Below, one piece after another: positions 24,097 to 31,356 of a DNA stretch of 35,479 nucleotides. Below the pieces are notes generated by a model, which did no database searches, was not told where the DNA came from, and saw nothing but the letters and a program-made list of their open reading frames with translations. The stretch comes from Chitinophagaceae bacterium. GTDB lineage: Bacteria; Bacteroidota; Bacteroidia; Chitinophagales; Chitinophagaceae. How positions within the stretch are numbered: position 1 is the first letter of the stretch; each line of letters begins with the position of its first letter. The position numbers and the translations under genes are program-made. The stretch is from contig JAICGN010000036.1 in the NCBI GenBank assembly GCA_025923075.1, forward strand, positions 1 through 35,479, in the 5' to 3' direction.

Positions 24097-25482
24097 TTAC
24101 TCTTTCAGGAATTTTATATTATTTAAAATATTCTGTGCTACTTTTTTTCCTTGTACAAGGCTCTTTTCCTGGGTTTCCACGTAATGCAACCCTCCATAAA
24201 CCCTGCTGTCTGCCATATCTGTCCCCATCTGAGTAAATGTATTGTAATGCCTCGGAGCGTAACCAAGATAATCGTACGTATGAAGTGTTATCGGGAAATT
24301 CTCTCCAAAACTATTGCTTAACATAGTGATCACAGCACCGTTTGTAGTGGCGTGTCCGGAAGGAAACTCAGGATGATTAGGGGTAGGGATATAAGTAGTC
24401 CAGGCTCCGGCTCCAGGTATGTTTGCCCTTATATACGTTACAGGGCGCATCACGTTAAATGTATATTTACTGGTAAAGAGTACAATCGTGACGTCATGCT
24501 GTGCCATGCCTATTTTAGCATAAGTCACGGCTGCCTGGTCCAGCGTAGGATTTGATATTCTCAACGCCTCCTGCAACACCCAAACAAAACCACCGCCAGG
24601 TCCATAACCTGGGTTATCCTTAAAGTAATCAGCCATCGCTTTTTGATCGGTTGTTAGCGAAAGCGATGCGTCGTAAACTTTTTTTACCATCGCATAATAT
24701 GCTGATGAAGGATCGGTGGAGAACGGTGGCGGTGGTGTAAGTGTAGTGCCGGCGTTAGAACCAGGTACCATCAGCCTGCGTTGATACGCATAAGGACCAA
24801 CTGCGGCGGCAGGAGGAGGAGACGTTGGTATCCAAAGTCCAAAACCTACCGGTGATACGTAAGGAGGATTTACATTTGCTGAACCATCTGTCGCAGCCCA
24901 GTTGGCAACCCTGGTGGCTACTTCTTTTCCGAATGCAGTCGAACGTTGTAGGGTGGCTGCATCAACTTCGCCAGCATACTTTGCTTTCAAACTATCTTCG
25001 ACATGCGTGATAAGAGTTTTGTTTTTTTCCGCAGTAGTTGGAAATAGCCTCCGGCTTATTTCTGCGAGCGCGGCATTCGCACTTGCAGCCCAATGATAAG
25101 CTTTACCGGGTTCTGTAGAAGGCATTGAGGGAAAATCGGTGAGTTGCCCGGAAAGTGACTGGTAAGCGGGCATGCCTGGTACCACCGCCTCATACAAAGC
25201 AATGCCAGAATATCCCTGTGCCCTGTCAGTAGCTTGTGTTCCCGTGCCAGCTGGCAACGGTAGGCGAAACATATCTAACTGCACGTTGATCCAGCGCACA
25301 ACCAGATCTGAAGAAAATGTTTTTGTCTGCTTTAAATGACCATGCTCTTTGTTATTATTAGCAGCACCTGCTTCTTCAGCTTGTTGTTGAGAAAAAGGTT
25401 TGTCGACTTGCTTTTGGCAGGAAATAAAAACTATCAGGCTCAATATTGAAAGCCCTGACAGCGTTTTGGTGATGGATCTCAT
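24097..25482 (-). CDS. PAP2/vanadium-dependent haloperoxidase-like lipoprotein (copy 2)
   Basis: A protein of 461 residues. The signal peptide ends in a lipobox (LIVFISC, Cys22), then QKQVDKPFS, so it is an envelope lipoprotein. The vanadate/phosphate-binding motifs of the superfamily are intact: KYTFNVMRP, HPEFPSGHA with PSGH at 374-377, and SRVYGGLH with Ser426, Arg427 and His433. Members either oxidise halides with peroxide or act as acid phosphatases; sequence alone does not separate them, and the bacterial lipoprotein branch is poorly characterised. It shows strong similarity to 26117-27499 (shared KTFSSE, GMPGYQSLYGQLTD-like and STEPGKAYHW). It is followed on the same strand by a PKD fragment. 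Confidence 0.9.
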   Translation of the reverse strand: MRSITKTLSGLSILSLIVFISCQKQVDKPFSQQQAEEAGAANNNKEHGHLKQTKTFSSDLVVRWINVQLDMFRLPLPAGTGTQATDRAQGYSGIALYEAVVPGMPAYQSLSGQLTDFPSMPSTEPGKAYHWAASANAALAEISRRLFPTTAEKNKTLITHVEDSLKAKYAGEVDAATLQRSTAFGKEVATRVANWAATDGSANVNPPYVSPVGFGLWIPTSPPPAAAVGPYAYQRRLMVPGSNAGTTLTPPPPFSTDPSSAYYAMVKKVYDASLSLTTDQKAMADYFKDNPGYGPGGGFVWVLQEALRISNPTLDQAAVTYAKIGMAQHDVTIVLFTSKYTFNVMRPVTYIRANIPGAGAWTTYIPTPNHPEFPSGHATTNGAVITMLSNSFGENFPITLHTYDYLGYAPRHYNTFTQMGTDMADSRVYGGLHYVETQEKSLVQGKKVAQNILNNIKFLKE

Positions 25483-26116: not shown

Positions 26117-27499
26117 TTAATCTTTTTTGAACTTCACTATGTTCAATATATTCCCGGCAATTTTTTCTCCCTGCCTTTTTCCTTCAACACAAGAATAGGT
26201 ATAATGTATACCAGCATACACTCTTGAACGTCCAATATCTTCTGCCATTTCATTGAAAGAATTGTAAGAACGTGGCGCCATACCAAGATTATCATAAGTA
26301 CGAAGCGTAACAAAATAATTATCTCCAAACAAACTGGTCATGATTGCTGCAAAAGCGCCCCCTGTTTGCGAGTGACCCGAAGGAAAATCCGGGTGATTAG
26401 GCATGGACAACAATGAGGTCCACCCGGTATGTCCCATTACATTACGAATGTAGCGGGTGGGCCGGTCCGTTAGTATATCATATTTTTTCTTCCAGCAATC
26501 GATTTGGGATTCGGCCATCGCGATGGCAACTTTTGCATGTGCCAATGCATAAAAATCCAATTGCGGATTTTCGTCATTCATTACCTGACTGAAGATATAC
26601 TGGTAGTGTGTGCCTCCCTGGAAGCCCGGGTTGTCACGGAAATACAATGCGGTTGCGATCTGTTCAGAAGTCAGTGTTTGTGAAATATCATATACTTCCT
26701 TTACCATTTGGAAGTAGGCTGAGTTAGGATCAGTAGAATAAGCAGGTGGTGGTGATGATGCAGTATTGTTTGTACTGCCCGGAACAAATAGACGGTTAAG
26801 CCCCCAATAAGGCGCCGACGCTGTTGTTGGATTCGGTGCAACAGGTCTCCATTTAGTAACATCGGATGACATCTCATACGCAGGCCGCACAGTTAATGCT
26901 CCATCGGTCTTTGACCATTCAAATACCAATTGCGCTATTTGCTTGCCAAAGTTTTCAGAACGTTGAAATGTGGCTGCATTAACTCGGGGTTGATATTCGT
27001 TTTTCAATGCATTCTCCAAGGAATCCATTGACGCTTTGTGTGCTTGTGAAGCAACTGTATAAAAGTTTTTAGTAAGGAACGCCAGTGCTGCATTGGCAGC
27101 TGTTGACCAATGATATGCTTTGCCCGGTTCGGTAGATGGCATTGCAGGCATGTCAGTAAGCTGCCCGTAAAGGGATTGATAGCCGGGCATCCCAGGTACC
27201 ACTGATTCATACAACGCTATTGCGTTATAAGCAAAATAACGATTGCCATTCAGACCAAAAGGATTTGCACCGGCAATTCGGAGAATTCGTAATTGCAAAT
27301 CATGCCATTTTCTTGCGACTTCTGATGAAAATGTTTTTGTTTGTTGTAAATGCCCGTGCACCTGATTAGCCGCTGTTGCCAATTCTTCGTTCAGAGCTGG
27401 TCGACTGTCCATATCTTTTTGACAGGAAGAATACATAAAAAGCATAATTGCAACAATCGCAATTCTTGTCATTAATGAGACATTAATCAATGTTTTCAT
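26117..27499 (-). CDS. PAP2/vanadium-dependent haloperoxidase-like lipoprotein (copy 3)
   Basis: A protein of 460 residues. The signal peptide ends in a lipobox (MLFMYSSC) followed by QKDMDS, so it is an envelope lipoprotein. The active-site motifs are intact: KYDILTDRP, HPDFPSGHS with PSGH at 373-376, and SRVYAGIH with Ser425, Arg426 and His432. It is closest to 24097-25482, sharing KTFSSE, VPGMPGYQSLYGQLTD-type and PSTEPGKAYHW stretches, so these two are the more recent duplicates and 22295-23665 the outlier. Activity could be haloperoxidase or phosphatase. It is transcribed divergently from the LytS/LytTR operon, 239 bases away, which makes regulation by that system possible but unproven. 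Confidence 0.9.
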   Translation of the reverse strand: MKTLINVSLMTRIAIVAIMLFMYSSCQKDMDSRPALNEELATAANQVHGHLQQTKTFSSEVARKWHDLQLRILRIAGANPFGLNGNRYFAYNAIALYESVVPGMPGYQSLYGQLTDMPAMPSTEPGKAYHWSTAANAALAFLTKNFYTVASQAHKASMDSLENALKNEYQPRVNAATFQRSENFGKQIAQLVFEWSKTDGALTVRPAYEMSSDVTKWRPVAPNPTTASAPYWGLNRLFVPGSTNNTASSPPPAYSTDPNSAYFQMVKEVYDISQTLTSEQIATALYFRDNPGFQGGTHYQYIFSQVMNDENPQLDFYALAHAKVAIAMAESQIDCWKKKYDILTDRPTRYIRNVMGHTGWTSLLSMPNHPDFPSGHSQTGGAFAAIMTSLFGDNYFVTLRTYDNLGMAPRSYNSFNEMAEDIGRSRVYAGIHYTYSCVEGKRQGEKIAGNILNIVKFKKD

Positions 27500-27738
27500 T
27501 TTTTCTAAGTTTGATTTTGAAATTTATTGTCAATATCAAAACTAGTTTTATGGAGATGTTGAAATTTTCTATTTCGGCAGACAGGGTTATTGAGATAGCA
27601 GAAACCTTGCGCCTATAGCCATTTCGTTTTGCCGACGGCAAACTGCATTTGCAGATAAAGAAAGAACACTTGTCTAAAAACACCTATAAACCCGGAATTT
27701 GAAAAAGTGATTATGTAACTTTAAAGGCAAGGCAGCAT
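27500..27738. promoter_or_regulatory. Divergent intergenic region with palindromes
   Basis: This region lies between PAP2 copy 3 (minus) and the kinase operon (plus). It contains half of the REP-like motif (cggcagacaggg, 27575-27586), a perfect hairpin tttgccg-a-cggcaaa (27628-27642), and a small stem ctgca-tt-tgcag right after it. A weak -7-like box TAACTTTA lies at 27716-27723 before the kinase ATG, without a well-placed -33 box. This is the natural place to look for LytTR operators. Confidence 0.4.
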
Positions 27739-28932
27739 ATGAATATTTATGATCTCATATTTTCTAACGAAAGAAATTATCGCGTCCGGCGTCATCTATT
27801 GTTTTGGACAGCCTGGTGTATATATTATATCGTAAGCTTTCTAATCCCCACTCATTGGATACCTGCCTGGAACCTTCGTGGCCCTATGACTCACATTGAA
27901 CGTTATGGTATCGTTCTCGCCAGCTTAAGAATTATGTTGGCTGCCATTTTAATTACTGTAGTGCATGCAGCACTTGTTTATGGTATCTTGTATTTTATCC
28001 TGCCAAGGTATCTCTCGAAAAATAAAAACTGGATCATCACTACCGGTTTGATGCTATTGTTTGTTTCCCTTATGGCGTTTATTAACTATTTCAATTTTGT
28101 TCTTGCCTTTTATCTCAGTACCCAAAAGGGATATTTTGCAGCCATGCCAAACATGGAGTTTATTATCCCGGTGTGGATCCGGCACATATTAATTAATTAT
28201 CCTACAGTGGTCGGTTTTGCGTTGGCTATTAAATTGTTGAAAAACTGGTATGTCAAACAAGAAGAAACCGTACAGCTGACCCGTGAAAAAATCAATGCAG
28301 AACTACAATTATTAAAAGCGCAGGTACATCCTCATTTTTTATTTAATACTCTCAATAATATTTATTCATTTATACTAAATGGTTCTAGCCGGGCTCCTGA
28401 GATGATAAAAAAACTTTCGGCCTTGCTAAATTATATTTTGAACGAATGCAATCGTCCTCTTGTACCCCTCTCGAAGGAACTATCATTGATACAGGATTAT
28501 ATGGAACTGGAACGAATACGCTATGGCGATAAACTGAGCATGAATATGCATATACAGGGAACCACGACCGGGAAAATGATCAGTCCCCTGTTGCTAATTC
28601 CCTTTGTTGAAAACAGCTTTAAGCACGGGACCAGCCGCATGCTTACGCATCCCTGGGTAAAGCTTGATGTTACTATTGACGACAACGCATTAGAGTTTAG
28701 AATATCCAATAATAAACCCGAACAAAAGAAAGATGGAACAACCAAAAAAGGAATAGGGCTTAACAATGTAAAGAAACGATTACAATTACTTTATCCGGAA
28801 ACTCATTCATTATCTATAATAGAAAATGAAATGAGCTACGATGTAACGATGAAGGTTGCGTTATATGTACCTGCCGAAAACGAGAAGGTAGTTTTGAGTT
28901 TAGACGAAAAAGGAATATATGAACTGGCATGA
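27739..28932 (+). CDS. LytS-type sensor histidine kinase
   Basis: A 397-residue membrane histidine kinase of the His_kinase (PF06580) class, which pairs with LytTR regulators. Four membrane segments at about 18-37, 63-90, 99-125 and 145-165 form the sensor, with no large external domain. A short linker leads to the dimerisation/phosphorylation motif LLKAQVHPHFLFNTLNN, where His199 is the expected phospho-acceptor. The ATP domain keeps the N box (PFVENSFKHG) and glycine box (KKGIGLNNVKKRLQLLYP). It overlaps the next gene by 14 bases, so translation is coupled. It is the catalytically complete kinase of the three-gene system. Confidence 0.93.
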   Translation: MNIYDLIFSNERNYRVRRHLLFWTAWCIYYIVSFLIPTHWIPAWNLRGPMTHIERYGIVLASLRIMLAAILITVVHAALVYGILYFILPRYLSKNKNWIITTGLMLLFVSLMAFINYFNFVLAFYLSTQKGYFAAMPNMEFIIPVWIRHILINYPTVVGFALAIKLLKNWYVKQEETVQLTREKINAELQLLKAQVHPHFLFNTLNNIYSFILNGSSRAPEMIKKLSALLNYILNECNRPLVPLSKELSLIQDYMELERIRYGDKLSMNMHIQGTTTGKMISPLLLIPFVENSFKHGTSRMLTHPWVKLDVTIDDNALEFRISNNKPEQKKDGTTKKGIGLNNVKKRLQLLYPETHSLSIIENEMSYDVTMKVALYVPAENEKVVLSLDEKGIYELA

Positions 28933-30070
28933 ATTTGTTTTTTCTGAAAAACCTGCACATCGCGCCAGGCGTCATATTATTTTTTGGCTGCTGTGGTGGA
29001 TCTATTTTGCAGTTACTTATTATTATTATTTGCAGGTCGGATTGCAGAAAATCGTTTGGGGCGACCTGAGTTCAATAATGCTTATTGAATCATTCCTGCT
29101 TGTACTCATTCATTTAACTGCCTGTTATTTTTTTATTTACATATTAATACCGCAATACCTTATTACAAAAAAATATCTGCAGTTAATTGGAGGCATTATT
29201 TTATCGGCGGTTTTTCTTTTAGTTGCCGGCTATTTCATTCACAGTTTTGTATTCCCGATCATTGACCCTGTCTATCGGTCTAAAATATCCTCCAATAATT
29301 CGCTCTGGTGGACAAATATTAATTCTGGTTTACTAAGTGCTCCAAAGGTAATTGCTGCTGCTGCTGTTATTAAGCTGATCAAACGGTGGTACCTTAAGCA
29401 AAAGGAAAAAGAAAGAATAGAAAAAGAAAAGTTGATCACCGATTTGCAGTTGATGAAAGCCCAAATACGGCCCGGCTTTCTATTTAATTCTCTTGACCAG
29501 ATATATGATGCCGCGCAAAAAAATTCGCCGCAAGCCCCTGAATTGTTGCTAAAGCTTGCGGACCTGCTGAGCTATCTCCTGTATGAATGTGAAGAGCCAA
29601 AAGTTCGTTTGGAAAAAGAGCTTACGATGATGAAAGAATATATGGCTTTGGAAAAAGCAAGGCATGGTAACAGGCTTGAACTGGAAACGGTGCTAAAAGG
29701 AGATACCGGGGACAAAACAATTGCTCCTCTATTATTATTACCCTTTATAGAAAACAGTTTTAAACATTGCGGCTGCCAGGACGAACAACCCTGGATAAAC
29801 CTTGACATAAGCATTGAAAATGAAATTTTATCCATGAAACTGATAAATGGTGTTGATCCGGCAAAAACAAAAGTTTCTACTCAAGAGATCATGAATGTTG
29901 AAAAAAGATTACAGCTATTATATCCAGGCAAACATGAACTGAAGAAATATGTTGAAAATGAAATTTATGTAGTTCTTTTAAAAATTAACCTCTGTGAAAG
30001 ACCTGAATTGAATTTCTCGCTATCTTCTAATGTTAAAAATAGACAGAACTCAAAATATGCCATTCAATAA
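28919..30070 (+). CDS. LytS-like pseudo-histidine kinase
   Basis: A 383-residue paralogue of the preceding kinase with the same layout: four membrane segments (about 18-38, 50-78, 87-112, 137-153), coiled linker, then the catalytic region. The phospho-acceptor motif reads QIRPGFLFNSLDQIYD, with Gly186 where the essential His should be and Arg184 in place of the other His. The N box (PFIENSFKHC) survives, but the glycine box has become STQEIMNVEKRLQLLYPG, losing the GxGL that closes over ATP. The frame is intact and the C-terminal half is conserved, so selection probably maintains it as a non-phosphorylating partner, perhaps in a heterodimer with the first kinase. It overlaps both neighbours. 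Confidence 0.9.
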   Translation: MNWHEFVFSEKPAHRARRHIIFWLLWWIYFAVTYYYYLQVGLQKIVWGDLSSIMLIESFLLVLIHLTACYFFIYILIPQYLITKKYLQLIGGIILSAVFLLVAGYFIHSFVFPIIDPVYRSKISSNNSLWWTNINSGLLSAPKVIAAAAVIKLIKRWYLKQKEKERIEKEKLITDLQLMKAQIRPGFLFNSLDQIYDAAQKNSPQAPELLLKLADLLSYLLYECEEPKVRLEKELTMMKEYMALEKARHGNRLELETVLKGDTGDKTIAPLLLLPFIENSFKHCGCQDEQPWINLDISIENEILSMKLINGVDPAKTKVSTQEIMNVEKRLQLLYPGKHELKKYVENEIYVVLLKINLCERPELNFSLSSNVKNRQNSKYAIQ

Positions 30071-30836
30071 AAAAATAAAGTGCCTTGTTATTGATGATGA
30101 GCTTCCTGCAAGAGATGTTCTCGAAAAACATATCTCAGGTGTCGAGGCGCTTGAACTGGCAGGCACCTGTACAAATGCTGTTGAAGCGTTGTCATTTTTA
30201 CAATCCAATATAGTCGATCTGTTATTTCTTGATATTCAAATGCCGCATATTCTTGGGACAAATTTTGTCCGCACATTAAAAAATCCACCTAAAGTAATTT
30301 TCACGACCGCATACAGGAAATATGCCATTGAAGGATTCGAGCTCGATGCTGTTGATTACTTGCTTAAGCCAATAAGCTTTGATCGCTTCTTAAAAGCAGT
30401 AAATAAAATTTTCGAATTAAATCTTCAGAGTAATACAAATACGACAGCTGCAGAAAATCATGCCGAACCATCGCAGCCTTTTTTGTATGTGCGTGTCGAT
30501 CGCAAAATGGTAAAAGTGTTGTTTAATGACATTTTATATATAGAAGGGTTCAGAGATTATATCCGGATATTCACTACCTCAAAAACAATTATAACAAAAC
30601 ACCAGCTCTCATCGCTGGAAGAAATGTTGCCGGCCGATTCTTTCTTACGTATCCACCGATCTTATATAATATCCATTAATAAAATTGATTCATACAATAC
30701 TGACACAATAGAAATAGCGAAAAAAGAATTACCAATTGGCCGGTTATTCAAACACGATGTAATTAAATTGCTGAATGCTTCGACTGTCCGACGTGATTCT
30801 AACATAAATTTGAAAAACAAGCCGGATACTGATTAA
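30057..30836 (+). CDS. LytTR-family DNA-binding response regulator
   Basis: A response regulator of 259 residues. The N-terminal receiver domain has the acidic pair in CLVIDDELPARD, the phospho-acceptor Asp59 in LLFLDIQMP, the Thr in FTTAYRKYAIEGF and Lys in DYLLKPIS. The C-terminal LytTR domain (about residues 148-250) has FLYVRVDRKMVKVLFNDILYIEG, then FLRIHRSYIISINKID and LPIGRLFKHDV. It is the cognate regulator of the kinase operon: its start lies inside the end of the pseudo-kinase gene. ATG 30057 gives the standard N terminus (MPFNKKIKCLVIDDE); an in-frame ATG at 30030 would add nine residues and cannot be excluded. Confidence 0.93.
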   Translation: MPFNKKIKCLVIDDELPARDVLEKHISGVEALELAGTCTNAVEALSFLQSNIVDLLFLDIQMPHILGTNFVRTLKNPPKVIFTTAYRKYAIEGFELDAVDYLLKPISFDRFLKAVNKIFELNLQSNTNTTAAENHAEPSQPFLYVRVDRKMVKVLFNDILYIEGFRDYIRIFTTSKTIITKHQLSSLEEMLPADSFLRIHRSYIISINKIDSYNTDTIEIAKKELPIGRLFKHDVIKLLNASTVRRDSNINLKNKPDTD

Positions 30837-30903
30837 CATATTTCGTCCTTACTGGTTGTCAATGCTTACAACTCAATATCGGTAAGCAAATCCCATCCTC
30901 ATC

Positions 30904-30923
30904 GGTGTTTCGTTTATAACACC
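30904..30923. terminator. Candidate hairpin between convergent genes
   Basis: Arms ggtgtt (30904-30909) and aacacc (30918-30923) flank an 8-base loop, between the stops of the LytTR gene (30836) and the DsrE-like gene (30931). There is no T-run. A second imperfect stem at about 30849-30887 (cttac...gtaag) precedes it. Confidence 0.3.
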
Positions 30924-30930
30924 TAAGCGT

Positions 30931-31356
30931 TCACGGGTTATAGCCCGCTTTCAGATAGCTCCACCCTTCCTGTTGCTTCGATGAAATTTCGAGGCTGGCT
31001 AATGGCACAGTCACCGTCTGTGGTAATAACTGGCTTTTGACGATCCCTCTTCTTTGCATGGAGGCTTCACATGCCGAAAAAACAACATTGTATTTTCTGT
31101 GAAATTCTTCAATTTGTTGCTGCACCGTTGTCCTTTCCTTCATCAATATGTCAAGACCCGGCCCATAACAAACTACTTCCAACTTTGCCTTACCCTCTGT
31201 TGCTTTCACGATATTGTTAAGCTGACGCATAATTGTAGAAAAACTTGCAGTATCTCCTTTGGTAAAATCAAAAATAATTTTGTGTTCTTTTTGCTGCCCA
31301 ATGACTCCAGTTACAATGAAGAATACCGCTGCAGCTGTTAAGACTATCTTTTTCAT
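30931..31356 (-). CDS. Exported DsrE/DsrF-like protein
   Basis: A protein of 141 residues. The signal peptide (MKKIVLTAAAVFFIVTGVIG) is followed by a DsrE-like fold: HKIIFDFTKGD, IMRQLNNIVKA, KLEVVCYGPGLDILMKE, VVFSACEASMQRRGI, LPQTVTVPLASLEI and KQQEGWSYLKAGYNP. The Cys in SACEASM corresponds to the position usually conserved in this group (ACxNxM), so a thiol or sulfur-carrier role in the envelope is possible but unproven. It stands alone, convergent with the response regulator and followed on the minus strand upstream by the DinB-like gene. Confidence 0.82.
   Translation of the reverse strand: MKKIVLTAAAVFFIVTGVIGQQKEHKIIFDFTKGDTASFSTIMRQLNNIVKATEGKAKLEVVCYGPGLDILMKERTTVQQQIEEFHRKYNVVFSACEASMQRRGIVKSQLLPQTVTVPLASLEISSKQQEGWSYLKAGYNP

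Follow-up and report, generated by a model that had tools for sequence, protein, structure and literature searches.

A LytS-type pseudokinase retained beside its catalytic paralogue in Chitinophagaceae, probably as a sensor and dimerisation subunit

Why would a bacterium keep, immediately behind a sensor kinase, a second membrane-bound paralogue that has lost the catalytic residues? This question is raised by a three-gene tandem in the window, by which we mean the whole stretch of 35,479 nucleotides analysed (contig JAICGN010000036.1 of the Chitinophagaceae bacterium assembly GCA_025923075.1, positions 1 to 35,479 of the forward strand). The tandem consists, all on the forward strand, of K1, a catalytic LytS-type histidine kinase of 397 residues (27739-28932), K2, a LytS-type pseudokinase of 383 residues (28919-30070), and a LytTR response regulator with a receiver and a LytTR domain (30057-30836). 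Histidine kinases are generally regarded as homodimers. Our answer, reached by sequence comparison, is that K2, a LytS paralogue that is catalytically dead, is probably retained to serve K1 as a membrane sensor and dimerisation subunit. Reports of two kinases heterodimerising have been called rare (PMC12675982; this and the other cited papers are drawn on in excerpt), and no earlier description of this LytS pseudokinase class was found in the literature searched, which covered few subscription papers.

Re-reading both kinase genes and the regulator gene from the window confirmed that the K1-K2-regulator tandem is real as described. Both kinase-like proteins match the PF06580 His_kinase family in Pfam (93.5 bits for K1 and 70.2 bits for K2, cut-off 25.2), and the regulator, which carries LLFLDIQMP, TTAY and LLKP, scores 67.1 bits for Response_reg and 70.0 bits for LytTR, as a regulator of a LytS/LytTR system does; the D of LLFLDIQMP is presumably the acceptor aspartate of the receiver. 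As an earlier note on this DNA had stated, K1 holds the phospho-acceptor His199 in HPHFLFN (codon 28333-28335) and the G box GIGLNN (28750-28767). Coordinates and motifs likewise agree with what it said of the second protein: the H box of K2 reads RPGFLFN, with Gly186 (codon 29474-29476) aligned to the position of the phospho-acceptor histidine of LytS-type kinases, and QEIMNV (29882-29899) takes the site of K1's G box, leaving K2 without GxG. The N box and the LQLLYP stretch are indeed conserved in K2 (PFVENSFKH in K1 and PFIENSFKH in K2, with KRLQLLYP retained by both). Because the phospho-acceptor histidine is missing, K2 is a pseudokinase of the PF06580 family and not a kinase. K1 and K2 are 35% identical, and K2 is the sole exception among the 16 PF06580 proteins of the window's genome, the phospho-acceptor histidine being present in the other 15. 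The two genes overlap by the 14 bases given in the note (28919-28932), which would couple their translation. The start of the regulator was corrected: translation most likely begins at ATG 30057 (MPFNKKIKC...) and not at 30030, and this start creates a second 14-base overlap, with K2, that parallels three related loci described below (L057, L058 and L064; L and G numbers denote loci and genomes, respectively).

The predicted structure of K2 comprises N-terminal helices that make up the membrane domain, the helices of the dimerisation and histidine phosphotransfer (DHp) domain and a GHKL-type fold (mean predicted local distance difference test, pLDDT, 81; predicted template modelling score, pTM, 0.59). 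Its top match in the PDB is the kinase domain of GanS (6swk), and a profile search returns 6swj and 6swk; the DivL structure 4q20 is also among its 197 PDB fold matches (E of 0.001 or below), at rank 40, as are many histidine kinases. The Pfam scan detected no additional domain in K2. No NCBIfam family matched K1, K2 or the PAP2 and outer-membrane-like proteins discussed below with an E value of 0.01 or lower, and an Rfam scan of 27400-31000 returned no match.

The same gene order, kinase, pseudokinase and regulator (order A), was searched for with two short peptide patterns in one genome per species of GTDB r220. This search, which was not exhaustive, retrieved eight loci with a relative of K2, making, with the window, nine order-A operons in nine species. 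K1 has its histidine in all nine and K2 lacks it in all nine, the replacing residue being Gly in the window, L057, L058 and L061, Asp in L060, L063 and L064, Ala in L059 and Glu in L062. The earlier note had proposed to look among orthologous operons for an intact histidine in the second gene, which would have indicated decay in one strain, and for recurrence of the glycine; no intact histidine was encountered, and Gly itself recurs in three of the relatives. Because nine species keep a histidine-less K2 beside a histidine-bearing K1, the loss is not one strain's decay. The overlapping gene order is maintained as well: a 14-base K1/K2 overlap is possible in all nine operons, with extra in-frame upstream starts in L057, L059, L060, L062 and L064. 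The idea of a maintained subunit is thus well supported by absence of the histidine throughout, four different replacement residues and a recurring overlap. The G box of K2 is missing or partial in eight of the nine operons including the window, and in L061 (Ginsengibacter hankyongi) it reads GNGLVN; the loss of both catalytic elements, as the note described it, therefore stands for K2 of the window and is not universal. The frame of K2 is open at full length in eight of the nine operons, although amino-acid identity is only about 39-65%; a frame break, of the sort that the note had asked about, occurs in one, L062. The ratio of nonsynonymous to synonymous divergence (dN/dS), another of its proposed checks, came out low for K2, in the range 0.09-0.12 in the two comparisons with a value (0.088 by NG86 for window-L057 and 0.115 by YN00 for window-L058, with 0.07 for K1), bearing in mind that dS is saturated and that in most comparisons at least one of the two methods yielded no finite value.

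A second set of live-plus-dead pairs has the pseudokinase gene first (order B). It was assembled by searching 394 family genomes and 395 class genomes with profiles and adding hits of an earlier search. It holds 18 pairs, of which 17 lie in 16 family loci (L049, L102, L103 twice, L104, L105, L172-L176 and L178-L183); the remaining one, L200, comes from outside the family and has its regulator gene upstream. The histidine is missing in 16 of the 18 order-B pseudokinases (Arg in six, Asp in three, Glu in three, Gly in two, Ala and Thr in one each). The other two are L105, in which the histidine is present and the N and G boxes are gone, and L176, in which the histidine and the E-N of the N box are present and the G box is gone. 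GxG is missing in all 17 pseudokinases alignable at this site, L181 not being alignable there. In L104 the catalytic gene falls into two pieces; L173 and L174 reach contig ends. Of 15 order-B pairs examined, 7 have a 14-base overlap, and the coordinates of L200 show one too. Two consecutive pseudokinase-kinase pairs, with an outer-membrane-like gene between them and a single regulator gene, stand at L103:1970-7732, and two genomes hold both an order-A and an order-B pair (G361 with L057 and L105, G073 with L061 and L176). In four further tandems, L098-L101, both members have the histidine; none of the four has such an overlap, and on the tree they trace to three separate duplications. Motif loss is beginning in the second copies of two of them, possibly pseudokinases in the making: that of L100 (4728-5876) reads HPHFLVS and has degenerated both at its G box and downstream of the histidine, and that of L101 (6363-7478) reads HPHFLIN.

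In phylogenetic trees, order-A K1, order-A K2, the order-B catalytic members and the order-B pseudokinases form four separate clades, the catalytic members of A and B being sisters (bootstrap 100 and Shimodaira-Hasegawa-like approximate likelihood-ratio test, SH-aLRT, 97; SH-aLRT 92 in a larger quick tree). The K1 and K2 genes seem to travel as pairs, because each forms one clade with similar internal branching, alike but not identical, as L059 shifts with low support. The trees separate the A from the B pseudokinases, with long branches present and a single clade not rejected (p 0.26; p 0.085); the live-plus-dead arrangement may have arisen twice, in opposite gene orders.

What selection has kept in the dead members was read from the divergence of each pseudokinase relative to that of its catalytic partner over the same species pairs, with intervals from a column bootstrap. 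Eight of the nine A pairs (minus L062) and 13 of the 18 B pairs (minus L104, L173, L174, L181 and L200, which were broken, truncated, short or found later) entered the comparison. The membrane domain is selectively conserved, with ratios of 0.95 in A (0.88-1.02) and 0.95 in B (0.91-0.99), and at 25-37% identity within sets it is the least sure part of the alignment. The 33 columns around the histidine are relaxed, with ratios of 2.12 in A (1.35-4.14) and 2.81 in B (1.96-4.71) whose intervals exclude 1. Outside this segment the DHp domain gave 0.90 (0.71-1.12) and 1.00 (0.83-1.18), and the catalytic and ATP-binding (CA) domain 1.19 (1.03-1.38) and 1.67 (1.49-1.89), for A and B respectively. In order A, the membrane domains of K1 and K2 share about 20% identity; because own partners are no more alike there than foreign ones, these domains appear to be both old and different.

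Because the membrane domain is held at the partner's pace and the histidine segment is relaxed, a sensor and dimerisation subunit is favoured over a sink for the regulator. Among the roles that the earlier note had listed, the conservation pattern thus seems to speak for sensor adaptor or heterodimer partner, and the sink fares less well. In its fuller form this last account, which we consider unlikely, has K2 serve as a sink or phosphatase for the LytTR regulator through a DHp surface that lacks the histidine. It would fit a DHp domain that, outside the histidine segment, diverges no faster than that of K1, and a K2 gene that overlaps the regulator gene. In known kinases, however, the histidine segment also adjoins the regulator docking site, and it is this segment that is the most relaxed part of the pseudokinase relative to its partner, whereas the membrane domain, for which a sink has no need, is the part held at the partner's pace.

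The distribution of the pseudokinases bears on a further account, in which K2 now acts on some output besides K1, such as another regulator, in the manner of DivL, a known pseudo-histidine kinase in which the catalytic domain was turned into an input sensor (PMC4211667). At least 21 of the 394 genomes of the family have arrangement A or B (A in 7, B in 16, both in 2), counts that are lower bounds because four candidates were scored per genome under strict cut-offs. Among 146 distinct kinases typed (at least 200 residues and at least 100 bits), all 25 without the histidine are in tandem, and none is found among the 82 non-tandem kinases (65 single and 17 near a contig end); as the sample is enriched for tandem loci and its entries are related to one another, the figures describe a strong pattern and should not be read as an unbiased rate. 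Outside the family, the class-wide search met a single histidine-bearing kinase in 11 of 12 loci and a pair only in L200. A LytTR-type regulator gene stands at 25 of 26 pseudokinase loci (in L200 by start motif only), the exception, L174, being cut by a contig end. A broad DNA pattern for H boxes without histidine matched in 296 of the 394 genomes, its reversed control also matching widely, and no pseudokinase was present at the five places inspected (L187-L191). The lack of any solitary histidine-less kinase, the nearly constant regulator gene, the two pairs served by one regulator gene in L103 and the lack of a further Pfam domain in K2 all argue against repurposing, which we regard as distinctly unlikely.

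It is very improbable that K2 serves as an ATP donor in trans, its CA domain phosphorylating K1 at His199 within a mixed dimer and only its own histidine being dispensable. The GNGLVN of L061 and the N box, largely kept in the A lineage, would allow it, and in the Fas model one subunit gives the kinase domain and the other the histidine (PMC12675982). Against it, the G box of K2 is incomplete or gone in eight of the nine A operons including the window, GxG is missing from every alignable B pseudokinase, the CA domain of the pseudokinases diverges faster than the partner's, and that of K1 is complete; outside L061 such a role is unlikely. Finally, that K2 is a decaying duplicate, as the broken frame of L062 and the varying residue at the histidine position might suggest, can be practically discounted, being contradicted by full-length open frames at low identity, low dN/dS where computable, the constant gene overlap and recurrence of the pattern in order B.

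How, then, might a sensor and dimerisation subunit work? Phosphate would run from His199 of K1 to the LytTR regulator, because K1 holds both the phospho-acceptor histidine and the ATP site. The product of the coupled second gene, K2, would join K1 by way of the DHp helices, add to the complex a second and different membrane sensor domain and perhaps tune K1 activity in response to a ligand of its own. As to the sign of this effect, we lean towards restraint of K1, because a K1:K2 dimer could not phosphorylate in trans. The regulator would in turn control envelope genes, among them the divergent PAP2/peroxidase-like lipoprotein gene and, in relatives, that of an outer-membrane-like protein.

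Several observations weigh against this proposal. Not every K2 is fully dead, as the GxG box of L061 demonstrates, and a frame break interrupts the K2 gene of L062, whose contig carries a coverage of about 2.6x in its name. The dN/dS values come from comparisons with saturated dS. Live-plus-dead pairing is a minority trait in the family, and related kinases elsewhere work without it. In addition, K1 and K2 from the same operon are no more alike in any region than K1 and K2 taken across species, which gives no direct signal of co-evolution, and in order A own partners are even slightly less alike in the DHp domain than foreign pairs. A truncated pseudokinase form of ChrS, a kinase considered below, itself gave no significant heterodimer signal in the excerpted report (PMC9491836).

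Divergent from K1 on the reverse strand lies a PAP2 lipoprotein gene (26117-27499), whose product scores over the cut-off for PF01569 and below it for VCPO_2nd and resembles vanadium haloperoxidases, and beyond it, on the same strand, a second PAP2-like paralogue, likewise for a vanadium-peroxidase-like lipoprotein (24097-25482). A PAP2 lipoprotein gene adjoins five of the nine order-A loci (the window, L057, L058, L061 and, more weakly, L062; the L063 sequence starts 75 bases before K1), and this recurring neighbourhood makes the divergent gene a likely target of the regulator. Elsewhere, PAP2 lipoproteins are found at 4 of the 16 order-B loci, at 3 of the 19 loci with a single kinase and at 2 of the 4 tandems in which both members have the histidine. 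In or beside 11 of 25 pseudokinase loci (L200 excluded) there is a gene for an outer-membrane-like protein of about 359 residues, against none of 19 single-kinase and none of four both-histidine loci; the profiles used for this derive from members of the same loci, and the flanks vary in length. Copies lie at L057:5967-7046, L049:7139-8224, L103:4300-5376 and eight further pseudokinase loci. The protein begins with a helix followed by QGCVxxR and is beta-rich in a low-confidence model (mean pLDDT 62), and two copies scanned had no Pfam family over the cut-off. The only match in the window's genome sits on another contig, between two PAP2/vanadium-peroxidase-like genes (L198:3594-8594). This arrangement suggests that the PAP2 and outer-membrane-like genes form a module shared with the kinase loci. 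A literature search for the PAP2 neighbourhood brought up no paper.

Upstream of K1, the forward strand carries at 27636-27654 the element CGGCAAACTGCATTTGCAG, a candidate operator common to the window, L057, L058 and L062 and containing the dyad GCAAA-CTGCA-TTTGC. A 19-base query for this element meets 1, 0, 1 and 2 mismatches upstream of K1 in these four, respectively, and 27636-27654 is the sole site in the window's genome with fewer than three. The 5 mismatches in L059 and L061 are near chance (three such hits in 213 kb of shuffled window), and the element was not found before the operons of L060, L063 and L064. The kinase pair of L180 is preceded at 13 bases by a weaker look-alike (4 mismatches), and another (5 mismatches) lies on the opposite strand upstream of the lone kinase gene of L110. 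A paired-repeat scan with a consensus for LytTR sites gave 2 matches in 14 upstream regions, below the shuffled sum.

Extending the proposal beyond the window, we tentatively suggest that some Chitinophagaceae, a minority, together with one or more further families of the class might possess two-component systems without a symmetric kinase dimer, in which one live and one dead LytS subunit, each with its own kind of membrane sensor, form a two-input gate on one LytTR regulator of an envelope module composed of the PAP2/peroxidase-like lipoprotein and the outer-membrane-like protein. The 27 natural live-plus-dead pairs, from 24 species and in two gene orders, allow a direct test of whether a dead subunit makes a sensor kinase a two-input device, and of which parts of a kinase the pseudokinase still needs.

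Among characterised systems, BtsS/BtsR likewise combines a LytS-type kinase that has a membrane sensor domain with a LytTR regulator. Its histidine is confirmed as the phosphorylation site by the H382Q variant of BtsS, in which phosphorylation failed (PMC10653868). BtsS differs in dimerising with itself, and the excerpted paper describes no pseudokinase partner (PMC10653868). The closest analogue found is FasBCA of group A Streptococcus, likened here by operon logic and not by sequence kinship. ComE-like regulators, the type to which the Fas regulator belongs, carry LytTR domains. The fas operon encodes two membrane sensor kinases, one of them a proposed pseudokinase, together with one ComE-like regulator, and FasB and FasC bind each other, not themselves, in a two-hybrid assay (PMC12675982); the window operon shares the combination of two kinase-like genes and one regulator gene. 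The pseudokinase FasC, however, keeps the phospho-acceptor histidine and lends it, its kinase domain being dispensable (PMC12675982), whereas K2 has Gly186 in the window, no histidine in any of the nine order-A operons and usually no G box. It would thus be neither acceptor nor, in most species, donor. DivL of Caulobacter has a different architecture and is not a LytS protein. It resembles K2 as a histidine-kinase homologue turned pseudokinase (PMC4211667), and it controls the kinase CckA (PMC9491836). In Corynebacterium glutamicum, native ChrS and HrrS heterodimerise, and a ChrS variant with a dead CA domain raises output through the paralogous kinase, although this variant is a frameshift product of laboratory evolution and not a conserved gene (PMC9491836). 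By analogy, ChrS and DivL may be taken as precedents for pseudokinases that act through another kinase, as we propose for K2 and K1.

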